64,000 nt of DNA from Erwinia billingiae Eb661 (GTDB lineage: Bacteria; Pseudomonadota; Gammaproteobacteria; Enterobacterales; Enterobacteriaceae). Both the position numbers and the translations under genes were made by a program. Positions 2,408 to 29,475 of the stretch are shown in pieces. A model generated the notes under the pieces. It had not been told where the DNA came from. It made no database searches and worked only from the letters and a program-made list of their open reading frames with translations. Positions within the stretch are counted from its first letter, which is position 1, and each line of letters starts with the position of its first letter. Location: the NCBI RefSeq assembly GCF_000196615.1, contig NC_014306.1:3968001-4032000 (forward strand). The letters run 5' to 3'.

Positions 2408-3613
2408 ATGACAAGCTTTAATCCCGCCCTCTTTCGTCAGCATTTCCCGGCGCTGGCTGATGCTGGAGTCTATCTCGACAGTGCGGCCACCACCTTAAAA
2501 CCCTCGGCAGTGATTGACGCTACCCGGCAGTTTTACAGCCTCAGCGCCGGCACCGTTCACCGCAGCCAGTTTGCTGCTGCCCGTGAATTAACCGAAAAAT
2601 ATGAGCAGGCGCGCGAACAGGTTGCCCGGCTGCTGAATGCCCCGCTGGCGACCAATATCGTCTGGACCAAAGGCACCACCGAAGCGATTAACCTGGTGGC
2701 TCAAGGCTATTTTCGTCCTCGTTTAGCGCCAGGTGATGAAATTCTGGTGAGTGAAGCCGAGCATCACGCCAACCTGGTACCGTGGCTGATGGTTGCCGCC
2801 CAGACCGGCGCAAAAGTGGTGAAGTGGCCGCTGGGCAGCCATCTGCTGCCCGATATGGCCTTGCTGCCAGAACTGCTGTCGTCAAAAACCAAAGTGCTGG
2901 CACTTGGACAAATGTCGAACGTCACGGGCGGTTGCCCTGATATCGCTCAGGCCATCGCGCTTGCTCATGGTGTCAGTGCCAAAGTGGTGATTGATGGTGC
3001 TCAGGGCGTGGTTCACGCGCCGCCGGATGTGCAAACCCACGATATCGATTTCTACGCATTTTCTGCCCACAAGCTGTATGGCCCCATGGGCATTGGTGCG
3101 CTGTATGGCAAAACCGCGCTGCTGGAGGAGATGGAACCCTGGCAGGGCGGCGGCAAAATGCTGAGCAGCGTCAGCTTTGACGGATTCGTCCCGCAGCCGG
3201 TGCCGTGGCGCTTTGAGGCAGGAACGCCAAACGTCGCCGGCGTCATTGGGTTAAGCGCCGCGCTAAGCTGGCTGGAAGGCATTGATTTGGACGCCGCCGA
3301 GAGCTGGAGTTGTGGATTAGCCGATGTGGCAGAAGAACGCCTATCCGCGCTGAGTGGATTCCGCAGTTACCGGGCCAGCCGCTCCAGCCTGCTTTCGTTT
3401 GATATCGCCGGCGTTCACCACAGCGATGTGGTCACGCTGTTGGCGGAAAGCGGCATTGCCTTAAGGGCCGGGCAGCACTGCGCACAGCCGCTGTTGCAGG
3501 CATTAGGAGTAAGCGGGACTTTGCGTGCGTCATTTGCGCCGTATAATACCCTTCACGATGTAGACGCGCTGGTCAAAGGGATGACCACCGCACTGGACCT
3601 GTTAGGCGATTAA
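2408..3613 (+). CDS. csdA: Cysteine desulfurase CsdA
   Basis: This is a PLP-dependent group II cysteine desulfurase of 401 residues, SufS-like. It removes sulfur from cysteine and passes the persulfide to CsdE. The PLP lysine is Lys222 (SAHKLYGP) and the catalytic cysteine is Cys358 (GQHCAQP), the same numbering as in E. coli. A Shine-Dalgarno GAGGAAATT precedes the ATG. It is followed after two bases by csdE; the pair forms the CSD sulfur-transfer system, which also feeds the neighbouring TcdA. Confidence 0.97.
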
Positions 3614-27573: not shown

Positions 27574-28101
27574 TTAACCTCTCTTCCGTCGATAAGCGGG
27601 CATATTTCGCTGTACGGTCGTCTCCTGCAGTGGCATGACCACGCTGGCGAACTCTTTCATCACGCGGCGATAAACGTCGCGTTTAAACGAGACCACCTGA
27701 CGAACCGGATACCAGAAACTGACCCAACGCCAGCCGTCAAATTCCGGCGTGCTGCTGGTCTGCATATTGATATCTGCGTCATTGCACATTAACTGCAAAA
27801 GAAACCATTTTTGTTTCTGGCCGATACAAACCGGCTTTGTGTCCCAACGCACCAAACGTTTTGGCAACTTGTAGCGTAACCAGTTTCGGGTAGAGGCAAG
27901 GATGCGCACATCTTTGCGGTGCAAACCGACTTCCTCGAACAGTTCCCGGTACATCGCCTGCTCCGCAGTTTCACCCGCATTGATCCCACCCTGGGGAAAC
28001 TGCCAGGAGTGCTGGCCAAAACGTCTGGCCCACAACACTTGTCCCTGCCTGTTACAAATTACGATACCAACATTCGGGCGGTAGCCATCATCATCGATCA
28101 C
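27574..28101 (-). CDS. rppH: RNA pyrophosphohydrolase RppH
   Basis: This Nudix hydrolase of 175 residues removes pyrophosphate from the 5' end of mRNA and so starts RNase E-dependent decay. The Nudix box occupies residues 38-60 (GGINAGE, then REL and FEEVGL) with the metal-binding glutamates Glu53, Glu56 and Glu57. The length and N-terminus [14 protein letters not shown] match E. coli. It is followed by ptsP. Confidence 0.97.
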
Positions 28102-28269
28102 TGGACTACCTCAAACTAAAACTCGGATGTTCTGATTGTTTCATACTCCTTACAGGTGGTAAACCACTGCTTTACGCCCTCAGCACGTGGCTGACGCGGG
28201 ATAACTCACAGTTTTGCACCAAGTTATAAACAGAGACCGGCCAGAAAGCGCGATCTTATTCACGTTTTC

Positions 28270-28594
28270 TGTGGATAGCTTTGTGCAGAACTCCCTTAAC
28301 GGTTGGGGAAAACTTTTTGACGCCCAATCGGCTCCCGATTTTACCGGCTGATTAACTGATTCTAAAACCTCGGAATTATCCTGATTTCCACCGAAAAATG
28401 CCTCACGTCATCCTGCTGTCACAGAGGGATATTCAGTGACTGGTGAAAGATCGAACACCCGCGTTTTTATCCACAGGATATGCCGCTCACTTAAGCATAA
28501 ATCGTGCAAAAAGTGGCAAAACAGCCACAGTCAAGGCTGTAAATCGAAACAGTGTTCGCGTAAAAGACGAGTTATCCCATTTTTCTGTGGATAA
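28270..28594. other. DARS2-like DnaA-box cluster between rppH and mutH
   Basis: The 687-base gap between rppH and mutH has no convincing gene. It holds a DnaA-box set. Three boxes are close together: TGTGGATAG (28270-28278), TGTGCAGAA (28282-28290) and TGGGGAAAA (28304-28312), each one mismatch from consensus and in the same orientation. Two more are perfect and in opposite orientations: TTATCCACA (28467-28475) and TGTGGATAA (28586-28594). In E. coli the DnaA-reactivating sequence DARS2 lies in this same rppH-mutH gap, with a three-box core plus outer boxes; it promotes ADP-to-ATP exchange on DnaA. The match in place and layout supports a functional homologue. I did not locate convincing IHF or Fis sites by eye. 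An extended -10 (TG at 28697, TATTAT at 28700-28705) may serve mutH. Confidence 0.75.
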
Positions 28595-28788
28595 CAGGGG
28601 GGGTGATCCTGTTCATTGTCGGTGACAAGTCGGGCATAACCTTTTGCCCTTCCCTTTTTTACCGGGGATGGCGGGGTAAAAAATCATGATTTATCATGCT
28701 ATTATTCCTGTTTTGCACAATCCGCTTTGCCTTAATTTTCCCTGTGCAAAAGAGTGGTGATTTTTTGAACGGCAACAGAGAGTTATCC

Positions 28789-29475
28789 ATGAGTTCTGAA
28801 TTTATTCCGCTAACGCCGCCAGAAAACGAAACCGTGCTGCTGGATCGTGCCCAACAGCTGGCAGGCTTTACGCTGGGTGAACTGGCGGCAAGAGCCGGTC
28901 TGAAGATCCCGCAGGATCTGCGTCGGGATAAAGGCTGGGTCGGAATGTTACTGGAACGCTACCTGGGAGCCAGTGCCGGCAGCAAGCCCGAGCAGGATTT
29001 TGCCGAGATTGGTGTGGAGTTGAAAACCATCCCGATAGACGCGCTGGGTCGCCCACTGGAAACCACCTTCGTCTGCGTCGCGCCACTGACCGGCAACAGC
29101 GGCGTCACCTGGCAGACCAGCCATGTGCGGCACAAACTGGCCAGAGTTTTATGGGTTCCCGTTGAGGGTGACCGGGCGATCCCGCTGGCTGAGCGTCGGG
29201 TGGGTGCGCCGCTGTTGTGGAGTGCCAGTGAGGAAGAGGAAGCGCTGTTGCAGCGCGACTGGGAAGAGCTGATGGATATGATTGTGTTAGGGCAGGTCGA
29301 AAAGATCACCGCCCGCCACGGTGAAGTGCTGCAAATCCGCCCCAAAGCCGCCAACAGCAAAGCGCTGACCGAAGGGATTGGCACTAACGGCCAGCCGATT
29401 ATGACCTTACCGCGCGGTTTTTATCTGAAGAAAAGCTTCACCGGTCCCCTGCTGGCCCGCCATTTTTTATTGTAA
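28789..29475 (+). CDS. mutH: DNA mismatch repair endonuclease MutH
   Basis: This 228-residue endonuclease nicks the unmethylated strand at hemimethylated GATC after activation by MutL. The catalytic residues Asp70, Glu77 and Lys79 ([13 protein letters not shown]) have the E. coli numbering. The frame is open 31 codons further upstream, but the ATG at 28789 gives the family N-terminus ([14 protein letters not shown]). It is monocistronic and follows the DnaA-box cluster. Confidence 0.97.

Follow-up and report, generated by a model that had tools for sequence, protein, structure and literature searches.

DARS2 of Escherichia coli recharges DnaA, the protein that starts chromosome copying, and its reference description is reportedly that of Fujimitsu in 2009. 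DARS2 lies between rppH and mutH, whereas a second site, DARS1, occupies the bioD-uvrB gap. The head-to-head arrangement of DnaA boxes I and II is essential in DARS (PMC10380432; PMC8682772), and the E. coli region with boxes I-III has been replaced using two primers (Frimodt-Moller et al., 2015; PMC4585315). DARS2 homologues are listed for Erwinia carotovora, Yersinia, Photorhabdus, Rahnella, Vibrio and Shewanella (PMC8682772, Figure 8 legend). In this study, we analysed a window of 64,000 nucleotides from Erwinia billingiae Eb661 (NC_014306.1, positions 3,968,001 to 4,032,000), in which an earlier note had proposed, from the letters alone, a DARS2-like site conserved in the rppH-mutH gap. 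Alignments with E. coli MG1655, with 80 relatives and with 60 one-per-genus genomes agree with this proposal. We regard the gap as the orthologue of E. coli DARS2 with a probability of about 0.93, its function being attributed by homology.

Materials and Methods

The set of 82 gaps consists of the window, MG1655 and 80 relatives (80 loci kept of 278); among the latter, the MutH of Erwinia typographi is the closest (91% identity), followed by other Erwinia and Pantoea. A second set of 60 genomes, one per genus, represents 60 of the 67 family genomes in which the box I-II stretch is matched exactly, which was the selection criterion, and may overlap the 80 relatives. Together with the window and MG1655 these genera form the second alignment of 62 sequences. 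Offsets of IHF and Fis matches were counted in a set of 141 gaps and measured from box I. Published DnaA ChIP-seq peaks were placed on NC_000913.3; the footnote to the source table cites NC_000913.2, but the coordinates listed there for oriC and datA agree with NC_000913.3 (PMC11317965). Published work is cited from the parts of each paper that were covered.

Results

The rppH-mutH gap and its conserved islands

By sequence and ORF list, the gap between rppH and mutH (28102-28788, 687 bases) is gene-free. Counting DnaA boxes with no more than one mismatch, it contains 11, where 0.8 are predicted from the window average; in 1000 dinucleotide shuffles of its sequence the count averaged 1.9 and never exceeded 8. 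Four of the six perfect boxes of the window lie here. The two perfect boxes TTATCCACA in opposite orientation (28467, +; 28586, -) that the earlier note had listed are both present, as are its one-mismatch boxes at 28270, 28282 and 28304, all on the minus strand and spanning 43 bases. Strands and mismatches were given correctly, but the list was short of six further boxes, namely one-mismatch boxes at 28212 (+), 28224 (+), 28256 (+) and 28503 (-) and perfect TTWTNCACA boxes at 28711 (+) and 28743 (-). The last two, TTTTGCACA, face each other before mutH (28711-28751) and are poorly conserved, being perfect in 6/82 and 2/82 gaps, respectively.

The 82-gap alignment resolves into near-fully conserved islands with low-information sequence between them (Table 1), and the same islands appear in the 62-sequence alignment. 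The core averages 1.74 bits of information, block F 1.80, block G 1.64 and the box V island 1.32, compared with 0.40 bits outside the islands, whose limits were set by eye. These alignments also support the idea that the boxes are conserved while the sequence between them changes freely. Judging from its position on the leader side of rppH, island A probably lies outside DARS2. An RNA gene in the gap was dropped as a candidate, with no Rfam match at E up to 1 within 28000-28900. In E. coli, the gene ygdT is annotated inside DARS2 (L002:3331-3477). The aligned frame of the window has no ATG, GTG or TTG start and contains an internal stop, and ygdT may therefore be a spurious gene; for the same two reasons, which concern the window only, a small protein YgdT was rejected as the cause of conservation.

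Table 1. Features of the rppH-mutH gap of Erwinia billingiae Eb661 and its flanks, in window coordinates.
Feature	Position	Strand	Evidence or conservation
rppH, left flank of gap	27574..28101	-	ORF list; tblastn anchor in relatives
Conserved island A, leader side of rppH	28102..28170	-	Footprint, 82 gaps; mean information 1.57 bits
Island B, including one-mismatch DnaA box TTATAAACA at 28224-28232	28198..28234	+	Footprint
Core DnaA box I TTATTCACG	28256..28264	+	One mismatch in 81/82 gaps, two in 1
Core DnaA box II CTATCCACA	28270..28278	-	At most one mismatch in 82/82 gaps
Core DnaA box III TTCTGCACA	28282..28290	-	At most one mismatch in 82/82 gaps
Two overlapping weak IHF-like matches, two mismatches each	28341..28361	-	Consensus match
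Island TGg..AAAGATC.A.CA beside box V	28441..28462		Footprint
Perfect DnaA box, box V by position	28467..28475	+	Perfect in 81/82 gaps
Block F GTCAAGGCTGTAAATnGAAnCAGT	28530..28554		Information 1.80 bits
Block G: half-site TTATCCCA and perfect box TTATCCACA (28586-28594, -), head to head	28572..28594		
AAGATCCTGTTnATTgtc (window: GTGATCCTGTT...) beside block G	28602..28621		Information 1.63 bits
A-tract and ATCATnnnnTTA, IHF-like	28678..28705	+	One-mismatch IHF match 28692-28704, offset +436
mutH, right flank of gap	28789..29475	+	Sequence and ORF list; query for finding relatives

The core aligns with E. coli DARS2

The window gap and the MG1655 gap share their gene neighbours and can be aligned in blocks. 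The earlier note had made its proposal depend on an alignment of a three-box core with E. coli DARS2, and the core does align, although its composition had to be revised. The boxes at 28270 and 28282 belong to it as boxes II and III; box I at 28256 (+) had been overlooked. The trio of 28270, 28282 and 28304 was rejected as the core, as a box within one mismatch of the consensus occupies the 28304 position in just 17/82 gaps. Boxes I and II are placed head to head with an offset of 14, and box III follows box II at an offset of 12, in all 82 gaps; both offsets, like the position between rppH and mutH, are those of E. coli DARS2. The 60 genera, selected by an exact box I-II match, show a core in agreement with this. 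A search of the window for boxes opposed in this way, neither with more than one mismatch, gave a single pair; 20 shuffles gave none. Furthermore, the arms of the two published primers flank the E. coli stretch TTATTCACC...GTGAAGAA (PMC4585315), and the aligned stretch of the window comprises boxes I-III. The box of island B, TTATAAACA or TTATGAACA, has one mismatch in 82/82 gaps. Its E. coli counterpart lies within the arm of primer MutH-9 and should therefore have been retained in that DARS2 deletion (PMC4585315).

Distances between the core, box V and block G are fixed

Box V lies 211 bp from box I in 81/82 gaps, and among the 60 genera its offset is 211 in 52, 210 in 5 and 209 in 2, with no box found in 1; here and below, the spacing counts are not independent events because the sequences are related. 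The spacer at 28316-28440 has a mean pairwise identity of 0.37 (62 sequences), and box III and the island beside box V are 164 bp apart in 55/62 sequences and 1 or 2 bp closer in the remainder. Other segments of the gap are less constant in length: for the segment right of block G the modal length is shared by 48/62 sequences, and for the segment left of island B by 29/62. The right box of block G lies 330 bp from box I in 78/82 gaps, and in the 60 genera this distance is 330 bp in 53 and 327-329 bp in 7. In E. coli, both moving the IHF sites towards the Fis sites and moving the Fis sites towards the IHF sites were worse at 5 bp than at 10 bp, and a site with the IHF sites moved towards the core was partly active at 5 and 10 bp (Kasho et al., 2014; PMC4245941). 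Taken together with these shifts, the fixed spacing would fit selection on helical phase and length, and 164 bp held constant across largely unconserved sequence is consistent with a bent complex that depends on helical phase.

The distances also bear on a simpler explanation, in which the boxes merely titrate DnaA or let DnaA regulate rppH or mutH transcription, without nucleotide exchange. The boxes are indeed situated between two divergent genes, with island A and the boxes at 28711 and 28743 near the gene starts, and E. coli DnaA binds the right half strongly, with a 213-fold ChIP peak (PMC11317965). However, titration needs boxes and not fixed distances, and the invariant offsets within the core together with the 211 bp to box V therefore count against it, as does the poor conservation of the mutH-side boxes. 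We consider this explanation very improbable and retain the orthologue of DARS2 as the reading of the site.

IHF and Fis sites

MG1655 has two one-mismatch IHF matches 3 bp apart (L002:3229-3241 and 3245-3257), which fit IBS1-2 as assigned from the published 3-bp separation. At the place of IBS2 (+109 from box I), 101/141 gaps have an IHF match with two or fewer mismatches, against an average of 1.7 per offset. The IHF site expected at this place was not found in the window, where 28365-28377 has five mismatches. Among the 31 relatives listed (of 80), the IBS2 position has 4-6 mismatches in 8, including the six closest by MutH (L011-L016). Of the two weak IHF-like matches of the window, the one at 28349-28361 matches E. 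coli IBS1 in offset and strand; by our estimate, about 1.2 such matches are expected by chance in the 55 offsets scanned, compared with the two found. IHF control in the window DARS2 is uncertain, because the IBS2 position has five mismatches and the weaker matches are close to the number expected by chance.

Potentially, the Erwinia lineage keeps DARS2 with its IHF control moved or weakened, so that another IHF site, HU or Fis alone would act as the switch. The mismatches at the IBS2 position in the window and in its six closest relatives would agree with such a shift, given that most of the 141 gaps keep the match. On the other hand, the match at the IBS1 offset and strand remains, the window keeps the modal distances, and loss in a single lineage is a presumption. 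IHF reads DNA shape besides sequence, and a consensus count can therefore overlook an IHF site. We think it unlikely that IHF control has shifted in this lineage.

Further to the right, IHF matches with at most two mismatches occur at +435 in 98/141 gaps and at +436 in 30/141. An in vivo IHF peak was reported just outside DARS2 in E. coli (PMC13036160), and the IHF-like site next to the A-tract possibly corresponds to it. The island beside box V is, by its position, a candidate Fis region equivalent to FBS2-3. Fis matches with no more than one mismatch accumulate at +213, where they overlap box V (90/141 gaps), and at +226 (77/141), against a mean of 2.0 per offset; in the window, the putative site at +213 deviates from the Fis consensus at one position and that at +226 at two. 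The activators of DARS2 are available in the host, as IhfA, IhfB and Fis are encoded in the genome and Fis is 100% identical to E. coli Fis over 98 residues.

The conserved right half

Conservation in blocks F and G and in the AAGATCCTGTT island is at about the level of the core. Block F is a single copy in the genome (one match at up to 3 mismatches) and has no clear DnaA, IHF or Fis match. It was rejected as a promoter, since no promoter match overlaps it, and its single copy excludes a repeated motif. Two-mismatch IHF matches in block F at 28529 and 28542 have offsets that are kept in 39/141 and 52/141 gaps, compared with a mean of 1.7, a retention that conservation of the sequence from whatever cause would produce. 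Block G, 316 bp from box I, repeats the 14-nt offset of boxes I and II and shares TTTCTGTGGATA with them. Its right box is perfect in 82/82 gaps and the pair is present in 59/60 genera, 53 of them at 316 bp; the left half-site TTATCCCA departs from the DnaA box at three positions, both in the window and in 71/82 gaps.

DnaA ChIP-seq in E. coli gave three peaks in the gap, of 78-, 199- and 213-fold; the 213-fold peak lies near block G and compares with 213 at datA and 218 at oriC (PMC11317965). The right box of block G is one half of an E. coli double DnaA box with its partner on the far side (PMC11317965). At the position of this partner the consensus of the 62 sequences is GGtGtAAG and the window has GGGGGGTG, that is, the partner box is not kept. 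Kasho et al. (2014; PMC4245941) reported that, in E. coli, a plasmid without the right half still caused overinitiation and that DARS2 on a plasmid could do without boxes IV-VI. This dispensability of the right half in plasmid-borne DARS2 might suggest that blocks F and G and their neighbours form a separate regulatory site for mutH or rppH, outside DARS2. Such a separate site is hard to reconcile with the constant 330 bp between box I and the right box of block G in 78/82 gaps and 53/60 genera. Moreover, the sole promoter-like match in 27900-28900 misses the right half (shuffles, mean 1.0), and none of the three terminator-like matches (shuffle mean 1.2) falls on block F or G. A separate site appears unlikely.

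Related sites in the genome and in the family

The window is located on a 5.10-Mb replicon. A DARS1 core is present at C3:1520496-1520517, and uvrB starts about 390 bp further on. A datA-like cluster (C3:532441-532720; L175) has four perfect DnaA boxes after three tRNA-Gly copies, spaced 67/161/12 versus 67/162/12 in E. coli datA; its best IHF match is not at the E. coli place. The 170-kb replicon C2 has two head-to-head patterns, at C2:33453 and C2:53613 (L093:1501-1522 and L094:1501-1522), which were considered as additional DARS sites and are long inverted repeats of head-to-head DnaA boxes. A pair of small genes is present in two copies, one beside each repeat, and relatives of the first repeat occur on four Pantoea and Erwinia plasmids.

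The exact core pattern occurs in 67/149 family genomes and 20/295 order genomes, and the control matches none. With up to 3 mismatches, and with DARS1 and block G also counted, 99/149 family genomes are found among the matches listed; a 3-mismatch match alone proves little, because the reversed control pattern also matches about 46/149 genomes (by eye, among the matches listed). Of the 50 family genomes without a 3-mismatch match, 48 are under 2.0 Mb, one is 2.0 Mb and one is 3.3 Mb, and three genomes under 2.0 Mb do carry a match (all by eye, among the matches listed). Reduced genomes seem to lose DARS-like sites.

Discussion

The rppH-mutH gap of E. billingiae has the position and the core geometry of E. 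coli DARS2, and the site for DnaA recharging together with its internal distances appears to be under strong selection across the family. From the work on E. coli, we infer that DnaA binding, nucleotide exchange, activation by IHF and Fis and feedback would also take place here. By homology, ADP-DnaA would bind boxes I and II head to head, assisted by box III, and contact between the AAA+ domains of the DnaA molecules would loosen ADP. The released DnaA could then reload ATP, which would raise initiation activity before the next round. Activation would come from bending by IHF together with Fis beside box V, and inactivation presumably from ATP-DnaA bound to box V and the weak boxes around it.

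Block G resembles E. coli DARS1, which also has head-to-head DnaA boxes with a 14-nt offset. Using the E. coli DARS1 43-mer, the best ungapped match in the window is block G with 27/43 identities, by a small margin over the core (25) and the following matches (24 and 23). In contrast to DARS1, block G lies at another locus and not upstream of uvrB, and it has the offset without having two DnaA boxes, its left half-site carrying three mismatches in 71/82 gaps. It is nevertheless tempting to speculate that DARS2 is two-headed, with a second, DARS1-like half-core, its left half-site fixed as TTATCCCA, at a distance of 316 bp, which corresponds to about 30 turns at 10.5 bp and would place both on the same DNA face, so that two dimers might act together. 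We hold this idea to be tentative and on balance rather unlikely. If it were true, block G could be, for example, a platform for DnaA loading or for an off-switch, and plasmid assays without the right half would miss its role. In any case, blocks F and G and island B are conserved like the essential core, yet they were dispensable or left in place in the E. coli assays. In the part of the DARS literature that was searched, we did not encounter block G described as a second, DARS1-like half-core, nor the exact fixed spacing across genera or the missing IBS2 in this Erwinia lineage, and we claim no priority for these observations.

Compared with E. coli DARS2, the E. billingiae site lies in the same gap and has the same geometry of boxes I-III, box V at 211 bp from box I and a conserved right half. 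It differs in that the right half in E. coli contains a perfect box TTTTTCACA that is missing from the window, the boxes at 28711 and 28743 are additional, and IBS2 is not recognisable. Among the gamma-proteobacterial homologues, the core and the cluster of Fis and low-affinity boxes are conserved, as is box V in some species (PMC8682772). The figure of that paper compares seven species beside E. coli, and its section on DARS2 homologues gives neither exact spacing nor the right half. In summary, DARS2 and its gamma-proteobacterial homologues are already known and the E. billingiae site adds one more member, and the conserved distances turn the E. coli bending model into a prediction that is testable by comparison.
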